Shown: piece after piece, positions 2,974-24,526 of the stretch | How positions within the stretch are numbered: position 1 is the stretch's first letter | Layout: each line of letters opens with the position of its first letter | DNA from: a virus | Reading direction: 5' to 3' (one strand) | IMG/VR virus record: IMGVR_UViG_3300028197_000147 | Location: 1 to 25,113 of that record | Length of the DNA stretch: 25,113 bases | The notes under the pieces: model-generated | What the model was told of the DNA's origin: nothing | Databases searched by the model: none | What the model saw: only the letters and a program-made list of their open reading frames with translations | Position numbers and translations under genes: made by a program

Positions 2974-3507
2974 CTACCAAAAAAAATCTCCCCCACCACT
3001 CAAACCTAATTGTTTTGCGTAGTATGGTAATCGACATGCCCAATAGCCTGCCGTAGTCTTGTCGTTCTTAGTAGAACACTGGTGTCTTGCAACAAAGCTC
3101 TTTCTTGCTTTGTCATTTTTTAACTTTACTTTTAACCCTGTAGTATCACCCCAAGATATCTTCTTAATCTTGTCACCGTCCTTTACATAGACATAGTATT
3201 TCTTACTACCACCGACTTTGGGTTTATTGAGTTCGGGTTCCTTTTCTTCTTCTTCTATAATCATAGGACAATCTAGAGGAACCATGTTACCCTCATAGAC
3301 CTCAAACTCACCTAAGTCTGTCTCTAGGATTTGTTTATCAACCTCTGTAAGTACGTATCTATCCTCACTTAATCTCTTCCTTGCCTCTTTGATGACTTCA
3401 AAATACATCATAGAACCCAATCTAAAAGGATTGTCGGTTATATTAGTGTTAGTCTCTTGTAGACTATCAACTGTCTCGTGTATAGCCAGTTCGTGAAAGG
3501 TCTTCAT
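2974..3507 (-). CDS. Phage protein with C-terminal basic His/Cys/Trp-rich domain, 177 aa
   Basis: The N-terminal two thirds are acidic and helical (opening MKTFHELAIHETVDSLQET). From about residue 103 the character changes to a compact basic domain: a KYYVYVKDGDKIKKISWGD strand pair, then KARKSFVARHQC and GYWACRLPYYAKQLG, ending GGGDFFW. The ARH-x-C and YWACR elements resemble a small domain I recall from several uncharacterised marine T4-like phage proteins, where it occurs on unrelated partners. The paired Cys and His could bind zinc or nucleic acid, which is inference. The start codon at 3507 overlaps the previous stop by one base. The role is unknown, possibly structural or DNA-binding. 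Confidence 0.75.
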   Translation of the reverse strand: MKTFHELAIHETVDSLQETNTNITDNPFRLGSMMYFEVIKEARKRLSEDRYVLTEVDKQILETDLGEFEVYEGNMVPLDCPMIIEEEEKEPELNKPKVGGSKKYYVYVKDGDKIKKISWGDTTGLKVKLKNDKARKSFVARHQCSTKNDKTTAGYWACRLPYYAKQLGLSGGGDFFW

Positions 3508-4001
3508 TAGTCAAGCTTTCCGCTCTCAATAGCATCAACATATTCGTCTAAAGCTCTTCTAGCGTCTACAATACCATCATTGCATTTTCTCAGATAGAGG
3601 GATTTACCATTTTGTAATTTGTTCATACTTTTGTATGCACTCTCTAGCATTTTATCAAGTTTCTTAACATCTCTTAATTCGGGGTTAGGTCTAAATGCTT
3701 CTTGTATTTCTTCACCTATAGGGACACAGTTTGGTACTTGTTTACCATTTTTTGTTTTGAATCCTTTCTGAACGTAACCATCCCAACATGCTTCTTCTAG
3801 TTTCTCTTCATTGTAAGGGAATCCTTTTAATGGATTAGGGTACTTAGTAGAGAAGTGTTTCTTTTGTCTCTCTTCATTGACAACCTTGACCTGTGATAGA
3901 TATTCCTCTACCTGTTGGCCTGGAGTATCTTCTTGATATGCCTTTTTGGTTTCGTCTGTTCCAACTTCATGGACTCCGTTATCATGTTTGTTCCCACTCA
4001 T
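3507..4001 (-). CDS. Hypothetical phage protein with WDGY...PNCVP motif, 164 aa
   Basis: Three parts are visible. A hydrophilic N-terminus (MSGNKHDNGVHEVGTDE) is followed at about residues 67-97 by a short motif CWDGYVQKGFKTKNGKQVP then NCVPIGEE. A helical C-terminus (about 100-164) is rich in Lys, Leu and Asp. The Cys-Trp-x-Gly-Tyr ... Pro-Asn-Cys-Val-Pro element resembles a small module I recall from many marine phage proteins of unknown function; its two Cys are about 25 residues apart. The gene is sandwiched by 1-nt and 4-nt overlaps between two other proteins carrying such modules, so it belongs to a tight three-gene unit. The function is unknown. Confidence 0.75.
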   Translation of the reverse strand: MSGNKHDNGVHEVGTDETKKAYQEDTPGQQVEEYLSQVKVVNEERQKKHFSTKYPNPLKGFPYNEEKLEEACWDGYVQKGFKTKNGKQVPNCVPIGEEIQEAFRPNPELRDVKKLDKMLESAYKSMNKLQNGKSLYLRKCNDGIVDARRALDEYVDAIESGKLD

Positions 4002-7442: not shown

Positions 7443-7454
7443 AGTAGGTATTAT

Positions 7455-7469
7455 ACACCAAAATGGTGT
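7455..7469 (-). promoter_or_regulatory. Leader hairpin before ligase-like gene
   Basis: ACACCA and TGGTGT form a perfect 6-bp inverted repeat around a 3-nt loop, between a late-promoter-like octamer (7480-7487) and the ATG at 7442. No T-run follows on the minus strand, so a leader structure is more likely than a terminator. Confidence 0.4.
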
Positions 7470-7479
7470 CCTTGTCTAC

Positions 7480-11851: not shown

Positions 11852-12334
11852 TCACTCGATGAAGTCTTCTCTTGAAAGGGGTGGCGGGTTGTTATGACCT
11901 ATCATTGATTGGTCTAAAATAGGATGTGTATAACCTTCTGTTTGTTTTGTCTCATAGTCCACCATCGCTTGTCTGATAGCGTCTTCTGCTAGTACACTGC
12001 AATGTAATTTTATCGGTGGTAATTGTAACACCTCTGCAATATCTTTGTCCTTGATGAGTTTTGCTTCTGCAATAGTCTTACCCATCATCATGTCTACGAA
12101 CAATGACGAAGATGCAATTGCACTTCCACATCCGTAAGTCTTGAATTTTACATCGACAATTTTTTCGTTGTCATCTAGTAATAGTTGAAGTTGCATCACA
12201 TCACCACAAGCAGGAGCTCCTGCAAGTCCTGTTGCGACCTTGGGGTCTTTCCTATCTAGTGAACCAACTGAGTGTTTTTTTGGGTTTGCAAGAACGGATT
12301 CGAATCGTTTTACTACTTCATCTGAGTATGCCAT
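11852..12334 (-). CDS. iscU: Fe-S cluster scaffold IscU, 160 aa, with C-terminal extension
   Basis: IscU is the scaffold on which IscS-derived sulfur and iron form 2Fe-2S clusters before HscA/HscB-assisted transfer. All key residues are visible: C43 and D45 in GAPACGDVMQLQ, C69 in KTYGCGSAIASSS, and H111-C112 in KLHCSVLAEDA. The chaperone-recognition motif appears as LPPIK at 105-109 (usual LPPVK). Bacterial IscU is about 128 aa; here a tail of about 25 residues (GYTHPILDQSMIGHNNPPP, then LSREDFIE) is added. No iscS, iscA or fdx is nearby, so it must work with host partners. A GATAAATA octamer lies 5 nt before the ATG. This is a likely host-derived auxiliary metabolic gene. Confidence 0.92.
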   Translation of the reverse strand: MAYSDEVVKRFESVLANPKKHSVGSLDRKDPKVATGLAGAPACGDVMQLQLLLDDNEKIVDVKFKTYGCGSAIASSSLFVDMMMGKTIAEAKLIKDKDIAEVLQLPPIKLHCSVLAEDAIRQAMVDYETKQTEGYTHPILDQSMIGHNNPPPLSREDFIE

Positions 12335-17985: not shown

Positions 17986-18987
17986 CTAGAAAAAGCTGTC
18001 GAGTGAACCTTTCTCCTCATACTTTCCAGCATGTGGGCCGATAGGATTCTCAGTCTTTCCAGCTCTCCCTTTAGTTGCAACATGTTCATCACAATATGCA
18101 ACACATGATAACCTTACTCCTTCACCAGTGATAGGTGATACACCGTGCAATTCATTTGAATCTGCAATCAGTACGTCTCCATCATCTGCTTCAATAGCAA
18201 TACCATATCTAGGGAAACATAAGTATGCACCCCCAAATTCTCCAATACGGAAGACACACATAGTTGTCATTCCGAACTCTAAATCTTTTCCATCCAAATG
18301 TGCAGACATCTTTGCAGTCCCACCAGTTGAATATTTGTTTGCAGATAAAGCTGTCATCGGTGAACCACCAATGTGATACTTCTCATCTATACATTCATCT
18401 GCAAAAGTTTTTTGTAAGTTGTATACTTCGGGAACTGCAGTCTTCAATGCTTGTTCATTGACGTTTGCAATCTGTGATAAGGTTTCAAACTTTTCTTTGT
18501 TGGATTTCTTATCCATCCATCCACTTGCCTTAATCATTCCTGTGAATCTGCCACGTTTATACCCGATTAGAACTGAATGAATCTCGTTTGCTTCTGCAAT
18601 ACGATTGAACTCACCGTTCTTCTTAAGTGGGTAGTAACTGTTTGGAGTTCTTAGGACATAGTCCTTTCCTTCGATTAATCCTTTTGCCTTCATCTCTTCA
18701 TGGTCGATAGGCCCGGCTGCATTTGCTCTCATTGTAGATGTATCATCGATAGAGAACAAAGTGTCTTTAACTGTTTGATAAGTCGTACCTGTATATGCTC
18801 TCTTTACAATACATGCAAGTAAGGTTTCACCCATGAGTGTACCATGAGGTTTATAGATTTTAATGATGTCATCCTCGACACCAATGGATGATATAACAGT
18901 ATCATAAGAATCTTCAGTAAGATACTTACCGTTCCATTCTTTGAATGTTTCTTTAAATCCTAAGTCTTTTGTTGCAGTGAATTCCAT
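17986..18987 (-). CDS. TET/JBP-type 2OG-Fe(II) dioxygenase, putative 5mC hydroxylase, 333 aa
   Basis: TET/JBP enzymes oxidise methyl groups of pyrimidines in DNA using Fe(II) and 2-oxoglutarate. The catalytic core is at about 225-300: SAHLDGKDLEF gives H230-x-D232, GGAYLCFPRYGIAIEADDGD is the typical GG...P.yG.a.....GD strand, NELHGVSP supplies H281 and GVRLSCVAY supplies R292 for 2-oxoglutarate. All metal and cosubstrate residues are present. It overlaps the C5-methyltransferase gene by 28 nt, the arrangement expected if 5mC is its substrate. The C-terminus GSLDSFF matches the polymerase C-terminus (SLDSFFG), suggesting clamp binding. Residues 1-190 form an uncharacterised N-terminal region. 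The TET assignment is family-level and the base product is not shown. Confidence 0.75.
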   Translation of the reverse strand: MEFTATKDLGFKETFKEWNGKYLTEDSYDTVISSIGVEDDIIKIYKPHGTLMGETLLACIVKRAYTGTTYQTVKDTLFSIDDTSTMRANAAGPIDHEEMKAKGLIEGKDYVLRTPNSYYPLKKNGEFNRIAEANEIHSVLIGYKRGRFTGMIKASGWMDKKSNKEKFETLSQIANVNEQALKTAVPEVYNLQKTFADECIDEKYHIGGSPMTALSANKYSTGGTAKMSAHLDGKDLEFGMTTMCVFRIGEFGGAYLCFPRYGIAIEADDGDVLIADSNELHGVSPITGEGVRLSCVAYCDEHVATKGRAGKTENPIGPHAGKYEEKGSLDSFF

Positions 18988-20234
18988 GGTTCTAATATTT
19001 GTCCTTTAATGTTTTCAACTAAGTAGTACATACACAATGGTGCTACCATCAATCCTATTCTTGCACCTTTATCATTGTAATCACCAGTCATTTTATAGTC
19101 GTTTGGTAGAGTCATTAATCTTACCATTTCTTTTGGTGTGTAAATTCTTTTACCACTGTGGTGGAAATGATTACCACCCATAAACTTAGGTTGACAACCT
19201 TGTTCAGTCAATGAATGAGCTGGTAGATGTTTAGGAACTATTCTTGACATATAGTAAGAATGTTTCTCATCTTCGGGTTTGATATGTCCTAGTGCAATGT
19301 TCTCTTGGAACCATGGTTTTACAATATGGTCTCCAATAGAGGTATATGCTTGGTTGTCTCTTTCTTTTAATACTGGTGTAAGACCTTTACATGGAACACA
19401 ACCTTCAAACTTTTCATCGGGATGAACATCAAATCCATTTACCCAATGACCTTTTGAAGAATCGTCCATGGCAGTCTCTAGATAAGCTGCATCTTTCATG
19501 TTATCTTCATCGGTTTCTAAATCATGGATTGCATCTTCTATAGATGCAAATTCTTTTACTGGGTCGGGGAATACAGATGACATGCACATCCAAGGCATTC
19601 CAATACCTTCAAGTACATCGTCACGTACACCAACCATGAATACTCTTTCTCTCTTCTGAGGTACACCATGCTGATGTCCCTTCATGATTTTCCAAGTCAC
19701 TGAGTATCCTAGTGCTTCGAAATCGTTTACCATCCTGTTTAGATGGTCTCTTGCATAGTCCATTGAAAGACCTTTCACGTTCTCACATATTATAACTTTA
19801 GGCATTAACCCTTCGGCAATCCTAATCATTTCCCATGTTAGGTCTTCAATGTTCTGTTGCTTCATACCATATGCCATCTTCTCTTGGTTCCATCCTTCTT
19901 TCTTGGAACCTGCCATAGAAAATGGTGGACAAGGTGGTGACCCATCCATGATATCTAATTCGTATTTCTTAAGTCCACTAAGCTCCATGATACCTTCTGC
20001 AGTGACTTCTTTGATGTCTCTACATTCATGTACTGTGTTAGGGAAGTTTTCTAGGTAGGTGTCAACATGTAACTGTTGGAACTCGTTCATGTAACGAACG
20101 TCACCACCTGCTAGTTTGTAACCACATGAAGAACCACCACCGCCTGCAAAGAAAGTAATGTAATTAAACTGTTTACTTTCACTGTTACGGTGAAGGTCTT
20201 CTAGATTGTATTGAAAATATTTATTATCACTCAT
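18960..20234 (-). CDS. DNA (cytosine-C5) methyltransferase, 424 aa
   Basis: Transfers methyl from S-adenosylmethionine to C5 of cytosine. Numbering from the first ATG at 20237: motif I FFAGGGGSSCGY at 29-40, motif IV GSPPCPPFS at 99-107 with catalytic C103, motif VI ENVKGL at 152-157, motif VIII HGVPQKRERVF at 190-200 and a motif-X-like ARIGLMVAP near the C-terminus. Residues about 200-370 are the target-recognition region, so the recognised sequence cannot be read off. No restriction enzyme accompanies it. I prefer the second ATG at 20234, 5 nt after GGAG; the first is only 2 nt away. The end overlaps the TET-like gene, implying coupled synthesis. Confidence 0.92.
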   Translation of the reverse strand: MSDNKYFQYNLEDLHRNSESKQFNYITFFAGGGGSSCGYKLAGGDVRYMNEFQQLHVDTYLENFPNTVHECRDIKEVTAEGIMELSGLKKYELDIMDGSPPCPPFSMAGSKKEGWNQEKMAYGMKQQNIEDLTWEMIRIAEGLMPKVIICENVKGLSMDYARDHLNRMVNDFEALGYSVTWKIMKGHQHGVPQKRERVFMVGVRDDVLEGIGMPWMCMSSVFPDPVKEFASIEDAIHDLETDEDNMKDAAYLETAMDDSSKGHWVNGFDVHPDEKFEGCVPCKGLTPVLKERDNQAYTSIGDHIVKPWFQENIALGHIKPEDEKHSYYMSRIVPKHLPAHSLTEQGCQPKFMGGNHFHHSGKRIYTPKEMVRLMTLPNDYKMTGDYNDKGARIGLMVAPLCMYYLVENIKGQILEPWNSLQQKT

Positions 20235-20243
20235 CATGACTCC

Positions 20244-20273
20244 ATTATACTATATTTAGCACAACTCTGTCAA
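20244..20273 (-). promoter_or_regulatory. Consensus sigma70 promoter of the methyltransferase-TET unit
   Basis: Perfect TTGACA (20273-20268), 18-nt spacer, perfect TATAAT (20249-20244). It is the best sigma70 match in the window. A GCTAAATA late-like element (20260-20253) lies inside the spacer. A start at +7 would fall on the first ATG, so initiation may be leaderless, or may use GGAG if the start is slightly further upstream. Confidence 0.8.
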
Positions 20274-20281
20274 GGCGATTT

Positions 20282-20809
20282 CTAAAGATTTTTCAATATA
20301 TTTTCTGGGCTTGAAGTCTCATAAGGGTCGGACTCTGCATTGTCTTGATAGCCATCTTCAATGAATGCTTTTTCAATTACACCATCGTTGATTACAACTG
20401 CATATCTCCAAGACCTATATCCAAAACCAAGATTTGATTTAGAACATTCTGCACCAATCAAGTGAGTAAACTCACCGTTACCATCGGGAAGAGGGTAAAC
20501 ATTTTTGATACCTAATGATTCGAACCATGAGTTCATTACGAATGTATCATTCACTGATACACAATAAATCTCATCAATTCCCTTTTCTCTAAACTCTTCA
20601 AATCTCTCATCAAAGCTAGGCAATTGTTGTGTTGAACATGTTGGAGTGAATGCGCCAGGCAAACCAAATACAATTACTCTTTTACCAGCAAACTGTTGTT
20701 GTGTGTCTAGTGTTACGAATTCACCATCAATTCTCTGAGGTAGGACTACTTCGGGTACTTTAGTTTCCCCTTCGATAATTTCTAATCCCATTCTTCTTTC
20801 TTCTGTCAT
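20282..20809 (-). CDS. Prx5-type peroxiredoxin, 175 aa
   Basis: A thiol peroxidase that would reduce H2O2, alkyl hydroperoxides or peroxynitrite. The peroxidatic cysteine C58 lies in FGLPGAFTPTCSTQQLPSF, with the P-x-x-x-T-x-x-C context conserved in the Prx5/AhpC-TSA superfamily. The YRSWRYAVVI stretch carries the active-site arginine. A second Cys in GAECSKSN could act as resolving residue but is not at a standard position. The frame starts at 20809 with GGAG 12 nt upstream; an internal ATG at 20791 is possible. The promoter region is bracketed by an inverted repeat. It lies next to hsp20, so both may serve stress tolerance during infection. Confidence 0.9.
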   Translation of the reverse strand: MTEERRMGLEIIEGETKVPEVVLPQRIDGEFVTLDTQQQFAGKRVIVFGLPGAFTPTCSTQQLPSFDERFEEFREKGIDEIYCVSVNDTFVMNSWFESLGIKNVYPLPDGNGEFTHLIGAECSKSNLGFGYRSWRYAVVINDGVIEKAFIEDGYQDNAESDPYETSSPENILKNL

Positions 20810-20832
20810 AATAATCTATACTCCATAATAAT

Positions 20833-20867
20833 AGATACACCTATTATATAACATAACAGGTGTATCT
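20833..20867. repeat. 10-bp inverted repeat around the prx promoter
   Basis: AGATACACCT (20833-20842) and AGGTGTATCT (20858-20867) are perfect inverted arms around a 15-nt AT-rich centre. The -10 of the prx promoter is in the centre and one arm overlaps its spacer, an operator-like layout. As RNA from hsp20 it could fold a hairpin and stop or slow transcription, but the following sequence is only ATTATTAT, a weak T-run. Confidence 0.55.
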
Positions 20868-20871
20868 GTAA
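20843..20871 (-). promoter_or_regulatory. Sigma70-type promoter of the peroxiredoxin
   Basis: TTACAG (20871-20866), 17-nt spacer, TATAAT (20848-20843). The -35 is weak, the -10 perfect. It lies almost entirely within the inverted repeat at 20833-20867. Confidence 0.5.
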
Positions 20872-20880
20872 GAGGCTTTG

Positions 20881-21318
20881 TTAAGAAATTTTGATTTTTT
20901 GGGGTTTATCTTCTTCGGGTATAATCCTTTCCAAAGATACACTCAAAATACCATTCTTCATGTCTGCACCTTTAACGACAATGTCGTCTGCAAGTGTGAA
21001 TGTTCTTTTGAATGAACGAGCTGCAAGTCCTCTATGGACGTACTCAAGGTTTTCCCCTTCCTTTTGTTTACCTTCGATATTAAGAACCTCTTTCTCTTTT
21101 GAGATTGTGATGTCCTTTTTATCAAATCCAGCTAATGCAAGTTCGATACTGAAGTTCTCTGCATCGTGTTTTACAATATTGTAAGGTGGATAGTTTGTAT
21201 TAGTCGGTGACTGATTGGCACGTTCTAATAGTTGAAGAGTTCTGTCGAACCCGATTGCGAATGGGAATGATTTCCCGAAATTGAAGACATCGAAGTCTCC
21301 GAGCTGTTTACTTGTCAT
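20881..21318 (-). CDS. hsp20: Small heat-shock protein Hsp20 (IbpA-like), 145 aa
   Basis: An ATP-independent chaperone that holds unfolding proteins. The alpha-crystallin domain spans about 45-135. It includes NFSIELALAGFDKKDI, a KEVLNIEGKQKE strand pair and the NGILSVSLER signature. The C-terminal QKIKIS contains the I-x-I anchor (IKI) that locks into neighbouring subunits. The N-terminus (NFGKSFPFAIGFDRTLQLL) resembles bacterial IbpA. AAGGAG lies about 7 nt before the ATG. Similar genes are common in marine T4-like phages. The upstream region carries a sigma32-type promoter and a UUCG hairpin, features expected of a heat-induced gene. Confidence 0.94.
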   Translation of the reverse strand: MTSKQLGDFDVFNFGKSFPFAIGFDRTLQLLERANQSPTNTNYPPYNIVKHDAENFSIELALAGFDKKDITISKEKEVLNIEGKQKEGENLEYVHRGLAARSFKRTFTLADDIVVKGADMKNGILSVSLERIIPEEDKPQKIKIS

Positions 21319-21350
21319 AGTTTTCTCCTTTATTAAGCAAGTTATGTTAT

Positions 21351-21371
21351 GTAATCCCCGAAGGCAATTAC
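21351..21371 (-). promoter_or_regulatory. Leader hairpin with UUCG tetraloop before hsp20
   Basis: On the minus strand GTAAT and ATTAC form the lower stem, a C(UUCG)G tetraloop caps it, and one G is bulged. It lies in the hsp20 leader between the sigma32-type promoter and the ribosome binding site. A thermosensor or RNA-stability role is possible; no pairing to the Shine-Dalgarno is evident within this hairpin. Confidence 0.45.
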
Positions 21372-21422: not shown

Positions 21423-21761
21423 TTACAATTTATTGCATCTTTTTGATGATTTGTTTGAAATACTTGCATTGTTAAGGACAACTAAACCCATAAGAAGGTT
21501 AATATCTCTCATGTCTTCTATACTTAATGTTTGATTGTTCTGTTCAGAAACTATTGCTGGGGCAAGTATAACAATCTTTCTTACACCCATTGTCATTACT
21601 GAAGGTCTTTCACCAAAGAGAGGATTCGTTTCAAATACACAATCGTATTGCAATCCTTTATAGGTAGTGTACATATCAAGAAGTTGAAGTGATACAAATG
21701 TACCCCATTGAAAATCAGTTATGGGTTCCTTTAATTGGAGTGTAGATAGTGACCTTTTCAC
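21423..21761 (-). CDS. Small membrane protein, DUF5658-like, about 112 aa (GTG start)
   Basis: I take the GTG at 21761 (MKRSLSTLQLKEP), with AAGGGG about 5 nt upstream and a 47-nt overlap with the cyclase. The recognisable part starts WGTFVSLQLLDMYTTYKGL and continues YDCVFETNPLFGERPS; this D-x-x-T/T ... NPL pattern resembles small membrane proteins of the DUF5658 type I recall. Two or three hydrophobic helices are visible (about 20-35, 53-66 and 83-95). A longer frame to 22022 shows a signal-peptide-like start, but it lies wholly inside the cyclase gene in another frame and is rejected. The function is unknown; its position suggests a partner of the cyclase cassette. Confidence 0.65.
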   Translation of the reverse strand: MKRSLSTLQLKEPITDFQWGTFVSLQLLDMYTTYKGLQYDCVFETNPLFGERPSVMTMGVRKIVILAPAIVSEQNNQTLSIEDMRDINLLMGLVVLNNASISNKSSKRCNKL

Positions 21762-23574
21762 TTTTCCCCTTGACGTGTATTCTATCGACTTCAATGTATG
21801 CTCCAACCTTACACTGTTTATAAGTTCTTTGTGATAACAACAAGTCCACCCCATCATAATTTCTCGTTTGTCCTTCGAGTCTAGCTCCGAGGTTAACTGC
21901 ATCTCCAATGACGGAATAGTCAAATCTAAGTTCTGACCCCATGTTTCCAACGATGCATTCGCCTGTAGAGATACCAATCCCAACATTAATAGGAGGCAGT
22001 TCGAGAGGTTTAAGTTCTTCATTTAATTCCTTTGTTGCTTCTAGCACTTCCAGTGCTGATTTAACGGCAAGGTCTGCATGGTTCTTACACTCCATAGGAG
22101 CATTCCAAAAACTCATTATACAATCGCCCATGTACTTGTCGATGGTTCCACCATTATTTAGGATTATCTTAGTCTGCATATCAAGGAATTTGTTAATCAA
22201 TTCTACTAATCCTTCGGGGTCATCCTGTTTCATGTAATGTTCGCTTATAGGAGTGAATCCGATGATGTCCATAAACATGAAGGTCATCTCCTTTCTATCT
22301 CCACCAAGTCTCAATTTTTCGGGGTGTTTTTGTAGCTCTTCAATCATGTCGGGAGATAAATACTTTTGGAACTGCTTCTTTATTTGTTGCTTTTCTTGGA
22401 AAGTCACATAGTATTTGTTGAACGAAGCATGACCGAAAACTACTAAGGAGGCCAACGATGAAAAGAAGGTATCGAAAAGAACGAGCTCTGAAGTCCAAAT
22501 ATAATAACTCCCGCCAATCTGGCATACTACAAGTAATAGAAACCCTGTCCCCGAAAGAACTGTGGGAAGCTTGTAAACCATCGCAACTATCATTAGCAGA
22601 ACTAACAGAAGAAGAACAGACTCTAGTGATTCAAGATAGTAGGATTGTTGTATTTGAACTCCTGTCAAAACGGTTTGGAGCAGGTTCGCTTGCACTTCAT
22701 GGGGATACATTACTCCCCTTGGGGTTGAAACTGGATTATTCAAACCCTCTGCAGTCAAACCCCATACAAGTATTTTATTCTCGAAATTAGAATCGGGTAA
22801 GTCTACTGCAGAAATTCTATGGAATTTGTTCCAATAGGATATCATTACATCACTGGTTGGAGTGGTGGTTATCGGTTTGTCTCTTCCCATCCGTACCCAC
22901 TCTACACCAGTCTCGGGTGTAATCTTAGTTTGATAACTTGGTTCGTTACGTAAGGCTCGTAAAGCTTCTAACATTAGTGAGGGATATACTTCATCGTTTG
23001 CCGTAACCAATAGGGGTACAGACCGCGTAGTCCCATCAAAATTTGGTGTTCCAGTGACAGCTGGAGTAGCCGTCACAACTCCAACCCCATAAGTATTATC
23101 TTTCAGCATCGCGATGGGCGATACAATTCCATCGAAGTTCCACAGAAAATCTTTAGGATTACCACCCCCAAACGTTGAGTTACCTACGAATGGTGCAGAA
23201 CCTTTTTGAGTTTGTGATGTTGGAGCAGCTCCAAGGATTGTGAGACGATTGACTAATCCCTCTGCAAATATCGCGTCTTGTGTGGGGTCTCTGTCGGGTT
23301 TAGAAAATAACATACCAAAAATATGAGTATTGCTATAATGGGTATCAAGAAGAAGGTCACGGTAAATACCACGACGTATAGGATATTGTCCAAAAGTTTC
23401 AAGAGACTTCTCGTCGATGTCGACAAGAACGATGTCATCCACATAAAATTCTCCTTGTTGTTGATGTAAGTAATCGAACCATGTCCAAGATATGTTCTCT
23501 ATGAAATAAGGATTAGTAACCTTTAATGCAAAGAGGGCAAGTATCGTAACAAGACACGCTTTCCAAGAGTACAT
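21715..23574 (-). CDS. CHASE2-domain class III adenylate cyclase, 619 aa
   Basis: A membrane receptor enzyme predicted to make cAMP from ATP in response to an extracytoplasmic signal. An N-terminal membrane helix (about 5-20) precedes a CHASE2 sensor (about 28-310), three further helices (about 316-333, 336-356, 365-382), then the cyclase domain (about 425-615). Catalytic residues are intact: metal ligands D436 (MFMDIIGFT) and D484 (DKYMGDCIM), K480 for adenine, S554 in YSVIGD at the substrate-specifying position, N561 and R565 in DAVNLGARLEG. The layout matches bacterial CHASE2-cyclases. The ATG overlaps the curlin stop (TAATG). Finding this bacterial signalling protein in a phage context is unusual and points to capture from a host. 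Confidence 0.9.
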   Translation of the reverse strand: MYSWKACLVTILALFALKVTNPYFIENISWTWFDYLHQQQGEFYVDDIVLVDIDEKSLETFGQYPIRRGIYRDLLLDTHYSNTHIFGMLFSKPDRDPTQDAIFAEGLVNRLTILGAAPTSQTQKGSAPFVGNSTFGGGNPKDFLWNFDGIVSPIAMLKDNTYGVGVVTATPAVTGTPNFDGTTRSVPLLVTANDEVYPSLMLEALRALRNEPSYQTKITPETGVEWVRMGRDKPITTTPTSDVMISYWNKFHRISAVDLPDSNFENKILVWGLTAEGLNNPVSTPRGVMYPHEVQANLLQTVLTGVQIQQSYYLESLESVLLLLVLLMIVAMVYKLPTVLSGTGFLLLVVCQIGGSYYIWTSELVLFDTFFSSLASLVVFGHASFNKYYVTFQEKQQIKKQFQKYLSPDMIEELQKHPEKLRLGGDRKEMTFMFMDIIGFTPISEHYMKQDDPEGLVELINKFLDMQTKIILNNGGTIDKYMGDCIMSFWNAPMECKNHADLAVKSALEVLEATKELNEELKPLELPPINVGIGISTGECIVGNMGSELRFDYSVIGDAVNLGARLEGQTRNYDGVDLLLSQRTYKQCKVGAYIEVDRIHVKGKSEKVTIYTPIKGTHN

Positions 23575-24377
23575 TACTCTTGAGTTATTGTAACACTACA
23601 TCCACCTACTGTAACGCAGTTTTGTGTGAGTGTATATGATTGATTTGTACTTGAGTTTTGCAATAAATTTAAAGTTGATGGGTATGTACCAGTGAGATTT
23701 ATGGTTGAAGTGTGACTCCCACTACCCATTTGAACTATATGTCCTGTATTATCATCTGTTCTACTAATGTAGTTTAAAGTCTTTGCACCATCATTCTCTT
23801 GTTTCACCCAAAGTGAATTGTCATTTGCATAGATGTATAAGGTTGCAGTGTGACCTGAGTATTGATTTTGAGCACCATTTCTTTGAAACCCTGCGACTGA
23901 ATTATTATTACCGTGAATGTCTAGGTTTAGTTTATGATTACCACCCTCATCCGAATCGAGTGAAAATGTCTCATCTGAAGCGTTTGATAGAACCTTTCCT
24001 TGACCCCATCGAACTGAGTTACCATCTCCTTGAATGTGAAATCCTATATCAGATTTACCACAACTGGAACCACGAGTACAATTTTGTTCGAAGTGTAATG
24101 CATTGTTATTACCATCGAGGTCTCCACCCCAAGTTTCTCCCGAACCAAAGTAATCTACGAAGGAAATCTCGTTGTTGTTTCCTTCTTGTTTAATTAGAAA
24201 TGTGTTATTGGAACCACCGATTGTAAAGACGGTATCGTTGTTATAACCTATTTGTGTTAGATTAAACACTAGGGAATCATTAGACTGACTCCCAGTAGTG
24301 TTCACATCAACCTTGTTGTCATCATCTGCGATGACTAACAAGGGAAACATTATTAATAATGATAAAACTTTTTTCAT
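23574..24377 (-). CDS. Secreted curlin-repeat (CsgA/B-like) protein, 267 aa
   Basis: I take the ATG at 24377, which gives a clean Sec signal peptide (MKKVLSLLIMFPLLVIA) and overlaps the stop of the 49-aa gene (TAATG); a GTG at 24389 would only add four residues. The mature part has curlin-like repeats of alternating strands with conserved Gln, Gly and Asn: NLTQIGYNNDTVFTI, then FLIKQEGNNNEISF, LNLDIHGNNNSVAGF, and further degenerate copies down to a C-terminal TLTQNC. Four Cys are present (NCTRGSSCG, QNCVTVGGC), unusual for curlin. Curlins are exported and assemble amyloid fibres with CsgG/E/F help; no such helper is seen here. It could bind the cell surface or another phage product. Confidence 0.8.
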   Translation of the reverse strand: MKKVLSLLIMFPLLVIADDDNKVDVNTTGSQSNDSLVFNLTQIGYNNDTVFTIGGSNNTFLIKQEGNNNEISFVDYFGSGETWGGDLDGNNNALHFEQNCTRGSSCGKSDIGFHIQGDGNSVRWGQGKVLSNASDETFSLDSDEGGNHKLNLDIHGNNNSVAGFQRNGAQNQYSGHTATLYIYANDNSLWVKQENDGAKTLNYISRTDDNTGHIVQMGSGSHTSTINLTGTYPSTLNLLQNSSTNQSYTLTQNCVTVGGCSVTITQE

Positions 24378-24526
24378 TAAAATATCCACTGAAATAATAA
24401 TGTAAGAATCACTCCTTTAGCAAATGTCATCCATAACATATGGTAGTCATCTAACCTCATGGCTTTTTGAAATCCAAATATTTGAGTCTCGTGCCATTCT
24501 CGGAATTTACTTAGCATATTGTCCAT
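24377..24526 (-). CDS. Small membrane peptide, 49 aa
   Basis: An open frame opening MDNMLSKFREWHETQIFGF and ending in a hydrophobic helix (WMTFAKGVILTLLFQWIF). AGGAG lies 6 nt before the ATG and overlaps the TAG of the upstream gene, and its TAA overlaps the start of the curlin gene, so it is tightly coupled on both sides. The hydrophobic C-terminal helix suggests an inner-membrane peptide. The function is unknown. Confidence 0.65.
   Translation of the reverse strand: MDNMLSKFREWHETQIFGFQKAMRLDDYHMLWMTFAKGVILTLLFQWIF

Follow-up and report, generated by a model that had tools for sequence, protein, structure and literature searches.

What is a 10-bp inverted repeat doing around the -10 element of a promoter in a marine bacteriophage? 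The question arises in the 71-nt gap between an hsp20 gene and a peroxiredoxin gene (prx), both encoded on the minus strand of IMG/VR virus record IMGVR_UViG_3300028197_000147. The stretch analysed, referred to here as the window, is the entire record of 25113 bases, itself probably a fragment. Annotated isolates examined for hsp20 or prx matches belong to the Kyanoviridae. The original prediction recognized the layout of a repressor operator at this site, possibly under the control of a redox- or stress-responsive regulator, and added that the same repeat could act as the end hairpin of the hsp20 transcript. Comparison with relatives favours an extended form of the latter suggestion. With a probability of roughly 0.6, the element is a fused terminator-promoter, in which a sigma70-type promoter is nested in a weak intrinsic terminator that would end, or lead to the processing of, RNA reading through from hsp20.

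The element in the window

The repeat is present as described, with perfectly complementary 10-bp outer arms spaced by 15 nt (written along the record, AGATACACCT at 20833-20842 and AGGTGTATCT at 20858-20867), and it does bracket the -10 hexamer with one arm over the promoter spacer (Table 1). Along the minus strand the hsp20 stop (20881) is followed by 8 nt, CTTACA, 18 nt, TATAAT, the right arm, the tail ATTATTAT, GGAG, a further 11 nt and the prx ATG (20809). CTTACA-18-TATAAT is a predicted promoter of the sigma70 type, and its spacing would place the start of the prx RNA at about 20836, within the 3′ arm. In minus-strand RNA the arms extend into a longer stem that includes the -10. A 55-nt piece of this RNA folds at -19.9 kcal/mol (z = -6.06), a stability equalled by none of 200 shuffled sequences. 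Its hairpin score of 12 is the highest of any short hairpin in the window, the best of 20 Markov-simulated windows reaching 10, and it is the sole intergenic member of the four window hairpins that score at least 9. Rfam returned no match in the window and all 15 matches of a further Rfam search lay far below the gathering scores, so that assignment to a known RNA family was rejected.

Table 1. Features of the hsp20/prx junction in the window
Feature	Coordinates	Strand	Basis
hsp20 gene (HSP20 PF00011, phrog_432), stop 13 nt upstream of the hairpin	20881..21318	-	Pfam, PHROGs
-35-like hexamer CTTACA, one base shared with the 5′ arm	20867..20872	-	hexamer aligned in relatives
Hairpin (inverted repeat), 16-bp stem, 3-nt loop, 10-bp perfect outer arms	20833..20867	-	folding and covariation
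5′ arm AGATACACCT (transcript sense), filling the half of the promoter spacer nearer the -35	20858..20867	-	
-10 hexamer TATAAT, in the inner 3′ side of the stem	20843..20848	-	sequence and alignment
3′ arm AGGTGTATCT (transcript sense), beginning right after the -10 hexamer	20833..20842	-	
AT-rich tail ATTATTAT 3′ of the stem, a weak version of the T-tract of relatives	20825..20832	-	
GGAG, likely Shine-Dalgarno sequence of prx, outside the main stem	20821..20824	-	
Peroxiredoxin gene prx (Redoxin PF08534, phrog_2281)	20282..20809	-	Pfam, PHROGs

Searching for the arm elsewhere in the phage, as originally proposed, gave a divided answer. Exact AGATACACCT has no further occurrence in the window outside the repeat. 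With one mismatch allowed there are six matches, namely the two arms and sites at 2640, 7758, 7773 and 14577, against a shuffle mean of 1.94 and with none of 100 shuffles reaching six. Among the related contigs of loci L070-L095 (G001-G008), the 145.9-kb G001 has one exact arm outside the element, at 130496, and no exact copy outside the element was found in G002, G003, G005 or G008, searched where applicable with their own arms.

Conservation behind hsp20 in relatives

The first set of relatives comprised 148 sources (147 loci, some from one contig, and the window), of which 17 gave no hsp20 match. Within about the first 110 nt behind hsp20, a promoter-like site was found in 127 of the remaining 131 sources, in 48 forms; the exceptions are L135, where the sequence ends early, L144, L157 and L174. 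An inverted repeat scoring at least 8 surrounds the -10 in 40 of the 48 forms, a score attained by 2.75% of 2400 shuffled flanks and 15% of 1978 swapped arm pairs. In nearly all 40 the right arm begins 0-1 nt past the -10 and the left arm lies directly behind the -35 or overlaps its end. The forms below 8 are L022, L037, L101, L158 and L172, all followed by tRNA-Gly, together with L063, L106 (7.5) and L159 (7.0); L048, also followed by tRNA-Gly, retains the repeat with a score of 9.5. A second, more distant hsp20 query covered 80 loci; 78 of these yielded 36 forms, and the repeat is present in 22 of the 36. The two sets overlap in one form and their union holds 80 distinct forms.

A promoter-like site without the repeat is seen in the tRNA-Gly forms L037, L158, L172, L282 and L304 (scores 2-4) and in the nine forms whose hsp20 is most distantly related (L305-L316; scores 3-5.5), and the latter make the repeat a trait of one hsp20 clade. 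The prx loci that lack an adjacent hsp20 (L053-L068 except L063) showed no such element in the stretches inspected. Across all loci of the first sets, a repeat scoring at least 9 with the TATAAT-like site 3′ of the loop occurs at 47 of 2055 sites, and one with the site 5′ of the loop at 10 of 2055, a count in which many sites are the hsp20 elements themselves.

Pairing is kept while the letters change

The arms of different relatives are unrelated in sequence yet complementary within each element (AGGTGTATCT, GGTGCTACTA, AGAGGTATC, AGGAGTATCT, GAATGTATCT, GAAGCATGTCTGAA, GAGGGTCTAATCT, GGAAGTCTATTCT and others). When 38 of the 48 forms are aligned, two-sided changes occur in eight of the ten pairs, and 46 two-sided cells are observed versus 9.4 in shuffles, none of 500 of which reaches that number. 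Paired cells make up 92.6%, a percentage inflated by the omission of unpaired forms among the ten left out; when the partner is shifted by 1-3 columns it falls to 27-63%. RNAalifold, unprompted, predicts eight of these ten pairs and three inner ones. The hexamers are fixed, with bases 1, 2, 4 and 6 of TATAAT invariant across the 38 aligned elements. The original prediction had been staked on conservation of the repeat; it is the structure that is conserved and not the sequence.

The mismatches bear on which molecule is paired. If the palindrome acted as DNA, every T-G departure would read as A-C from the opposite strand, so no preference between the two is expected. On the read-through (sense) strand, the imperfect pairs of 48 distinct arm pairs comprise 30 G-U versus 7 A-C (23 versus 4 in the first set alone), and 21 arm pairs lean to G-U versus 3 to A-C (P = 1.4e-4), figures to be read knowing that arm pairs share ancestry and that a right arm constrained by the promoter could by itself yield part of the G-U excess. 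This excess points to pairing in the RNA read from hsp20 towards prx. Covariation, wobble and the T-rich tail described below are better explained by an RNA hairpin than by an operator, and they lend support to the suggested end hairpin of the hsp20 transcript.

Terminator character

The stable stem typical of intrinsic terminators is present in the window and averages -17.5 kcal/mol over 39 forms. In those 39 forms the eight nt past the stem contain on average 4.62 T and 2.77 A. The corresponding positions of 61 promoter-like sites in related contigs average 2.07 T and 3.64 A, a control that may include a few of the elements themselves. By a d'Aubenton-Carafa formula the terminator score exceeds 0 in 20 of 58 forms in sense versus 1 of 51 in antisense; 38 of the 58 score 0 or below in sense. 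The window's own form, with the poor tail ATTATTAT, scores -2.3, and four ordinary terminators in related contigs score 31-49. The family thus appears to lean to weak termination in one direction, the window copy being a poor example. L071 and L101 have strong terminator-like hairpins with the -10 in the loop.

Ending the hsp20 RNA seems to be a common need, since ordinary terminator-like hairpins with T-rich tails were seen by eye at the 3′ end of hsp20 in S-RIM2, ACG-2014f and C48C1. By eye, Melnitz-3 has a hairpin within the promoter spacer at this position and P-RSM4 one just before pstS. In L144 an ORF separates hsp20 from prx and an ordinary terminator-like hairpin lies behind hsp20. In this single case the prx element keeps the promoter and right arm while the left arm has decayed (-5.2 kcal/mol). 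Retention of the promoter and loss of the left arm alongside an independent upstream terminator was counted in favour of a fused terminator-promoter. The inserted ORF (about 3410-3940) has repeated motifs and by eye resembles a homing endonuclease; the terminator-like hairpin and TATAAATA precede it.

Variable genes behind the element

Besides prx, the genes that lie behind elements of this layout encode an AhpC-type redoxin (L170), QueD/PTPS (L157, with tRNA-Arg first), a DruA-like protein (L151; L107 and L167 start with similar protein sequence by eye) and, in L097, a protein whose methylase match falls below the cut-off. tRNA-Gly follows the element in L048 and, with weaker repeats, at other loci. 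L097 and L101 have an hsp20 97% identical to that of the window, yet other genes lie behind it. In L170 a second bracketed promoter was seen by eye before the following gene. This variety makes a common peroxide-linked purpose unlikely, and the redox or stress switch of the original prediction finds no support in it. L097, L107, L151 and L167 have an ATG within the 3′ arm, 6 nt past TATAAT, so that transcripts from these promoters could lack a leader and, in RNA reading through, the start codon would be base-paired.

Relation to known phage elements

Arbiol et al. (2010) reportedly described PeSL (promoter-early stem-loop) cassettes in phages RB49 and phi1. These are said to be sigma70-type early promoters fused to a stem-loop in the short gaps of T4-type phages, where they reportedly act as effective terminators and as sites of gene exchange. 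The present element, judged by sequence, likewise combines a sigma70-like promoter with a stem-loop between two genes. It differs in that it brackets the -10, has arms that change from phage to phage and sits at one junction; several copies of shared sequence per genome were not found, G001 having a single exact arm outside the element. In RB49, whose promoter stem-loops we take to be those published cassettes, the stem usually occupies the spacer (TTGACAGGGGATCGGTGATCCCCTATACT and the like) and much sequence is common to the copies. Spacer hairpins occur there at 12 of 81 strict promoters versus 2.8 expected, and repeats bracketing the -10 at 3 of 81 versus 0.47 expected. T4 has 3 bracketed promoters among 42 strict ones versus 0.53 expected, upstream of dmd, mobD.2 and ipII (20583, 57961 and 65770, minus strand). 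These resemble the hsp20/prx element in scoring 12-13 and in a right arm that starts 0-2 nt past the -10, and they differ from it in adjoining other genes. The T4 record has no hairpin, promoter or terminator feature annotated at the three sites.

Bracketing repeats were found at 2 of 35 strict promoters in G001, 1 of 15 in G002, 2 of 17 in G003, 1 of 11 in G004 and 1 of 8 in G008. None was found among the strict promoters of Melnitz-3 (41), P-RSM4 (37), C48C1 (48), HTVC008M (36), G005 (10) or G006 (9), where it should be noted that G004, G005 and G006 do carry the element behind hsp20, with hexamers that fall outside the strict set. The matches in RB49 (L206), G003 (L079) and G004 (L087) look like chance. 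Such low or zero counts indicate that bracketing of the -10 is no general feature of the promoters of these phages.

In the T4 genes e, soc and I-TevI, an RNA structure that only read-through transcripts can form has the promoter over its 5′ side (PMC3014915, PMC2988022). These genes show that placing a promoter within an RNA structure can set a gene's own transcripts apart from those reading through. The T4 cases differ in having a late promoter (TATAAATA) and a structure that hides the ribosome site, which is free at prx; a ribosome site or start codon in the stem is absent at prx and is seen in L097, L107, L151 and L167. A literature search, in which most papers were judged from their listing, returned no paper evidently about this element. 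The available parts of PMC1524935, PMC2988021, PMC2993671, PMC3037559 and PMC4177764 contain no mention of a promoter nested in a terminator. The element is best read as a variant of the promoter/stem-loop design of T4-like phages that works like PeSL, and not as a repressor site.

Other features of the window and its relatives

The hsp20 leader (21319-21371, minus strand) contains a covarying hairpin, GTAATTGCC-ttc-GGGGATTAC, followed by ACTTGCT...AGGAG. From 136 sources 74 distinct leaders were obtained and 73 trimmed ones were folded. RNAalifold finds rich covariation in the first hairpin and pairs UU.CUU with AAG.GA (68-73 of 73 per pair), the TTGC and Shine-Dalgarno part being conserved by row selection because the collecting pattern demanded it. 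UUGCU near the Shine-Dalgarno sequence resembles the motif of ROSE-type RNA thermometers. Folded singly, only 32 of the 73 leaders pair the Shine-Dalgarno sequence, and Rfam ROSE_3 gave a chance-level match (15 bits, E 0.49). The leader is a possible candidate for a phage-borne heat sensor on a heat-shock gene. Upstream of hsp20, L097, L010, L120 and others have by eye a late-type promoter, TATAAATA, inside the repeat ATGGT...ACCAT; the window has TATATATA where L097, L010 and L120 have TATAAATA. In the hsp20/pstS gap of Prochlorococcus phage P-RSM4 (L177, 1205-1280), AACACTCACTTA...TAAGTGGGTGTT were seen by eye around TATATT, directly before the pstS ATG.

An ATG lies 6 or 7 nt past the -10 at 23 of 66 strict promoters in G001-G003, these sites being partly orthologous, and at 9 of 35 in G004-G006 and G008; for comparison the T4 figure is 2 of 42 and that of RB49 3 of 81. 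Many mRNAs of this phage group may be leaderless. A perfect TTGACA-18-TATAAT with an ATG 6 nt later (20244-20273, minus strand) precedes a C5 cytosine methylase gene in the window. The promoter-like TAGACA-17-TATAAT at 7450-7478 (minus strand) has a spacer hairpin in the RB49 style, ACACCattttGGTGT, which is kept in G001, G002 and G003 with the loop changed in two of the three.

The window also encodes a Tet/JBP-type oxygenase whose gene overlaps that of the C5 cytosine methylase (17986-20237, minus strand), likely a DNA base modification pair. The gene at 21715-23574 (minus strand) joins a CHASE2 sensor domain to a nucleotide cyclase domain, unusual phage cargo, and the adjoining gene (23574-24389) has a curlin-repeat match just under the cut-off. 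A NifU-type iron-sulphur scaffold gene (11852-12334, minus strand) adjoins the DNA polymerase gene.

Proposed mode of action and alternatives

In the fused terminator-promoter, RNA polymerase with a sigma70-type factor would start the prx RNA near 20836, inside the right arm. That RNA would lack the left arm and thus the hairpin, and would have a short leader with GGAG free. Polymerase arriving through hsp20 would instead transcribe the whole 35 nt, allowing the hairpin (13-16 bp in most forms) to fold, followed in many relatives by the T-rich tract. Most likely the hairpin would then end the hsp20 transcript, or at least mark it for processing. The benefit would be insulation, hsp20 being uncoupled from the next gene inside a 71-nt gap.

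An operator for a dimeric repressor or activator would account for a palindrome that brackets a -10, and the extra exact arm in G001 and the surplus of one-mismatch copies found in the window speak for it. Against it, the arms of relatives turn into unrelated sequences while their pairing persists, and G-U is favoured on one strand. Exact arms are nearly confined to the element in the window and in G001, the single near-copies form no second palindrome, and the downstream genes are functionally unrelated. The half-site of a dimeric repressor is not conserved among orthologous promoters, and the operator reading is disfavoured as very improbable. That AT-rich promoters can yield palindromes by chance would make the repeat an accident over an ordinary promoter; the window-wide null, the z of -6 and the conservation backed by covariation speak against this reading, which covariation refutes and which is scarcely tenable.

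Two further alternatives accept the RNA hairpin and differ in what it does. The stem could be an exonuclease barrier protecting the 3′ end, or a site of the RNase III type, with no true termination and with a promoter overlap that reflects tight space. Maintenance of the stem by covariation and G-U pairs suits this, and the T-tract is poor in the window and in many relatives; against it stand the T-rich tract that follows the stem across the set and is absent at other promoter-like sites, and the difference in terminator score between sense and antisense. Processing alone is considered rather unlikely. In the other alternative the hairpin would shut off translation as in T4 e, soc and I-TevI, hiding the start of the next gene in the long RNA and leaving it free in RNA from the nested promoter. 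This has the T4 design as a precedent (PMC3014915, PMC2988022), and the start codon does lie in the 3′ arm of L097, L107, L151 and L167, near the expected RNA start. The GGAG and ATG of prx lie outside the stem, so the window copy cannot work in this manner, and translational shut-off is considered improbable.

Implications

The overlap of a promoter and a terminator-like hairpin within 35 nt places every base under two readings. The 80 distinct forms are a natural data set for studying how far a promoter spacer and the initial bases of a transcript can vary when pairing has to be maintained. A more general lesson is that a palindrome over a phage promoter is not necessarily an operator. Building on the fused terminator-promoter, a tentative and rather doubtful extension is that the element serves as an exchangeable plug, terminating one transcript and initiating the one after it. 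Whole genes (prx, AhpC, QueD, DruA-like, methylase-like, tRNA-Gly) could then be swapped behind hsp20 with neither neighbour disturbed, selection renewing the arms by compensatory change and holding the hexamers constant; in some members the ATG itself would be the RNA start, and translation from read-through RNA would be blocked. If this is true, the element would offer a concrete route by which marine T4-type phages exchange genes at one fixed position.
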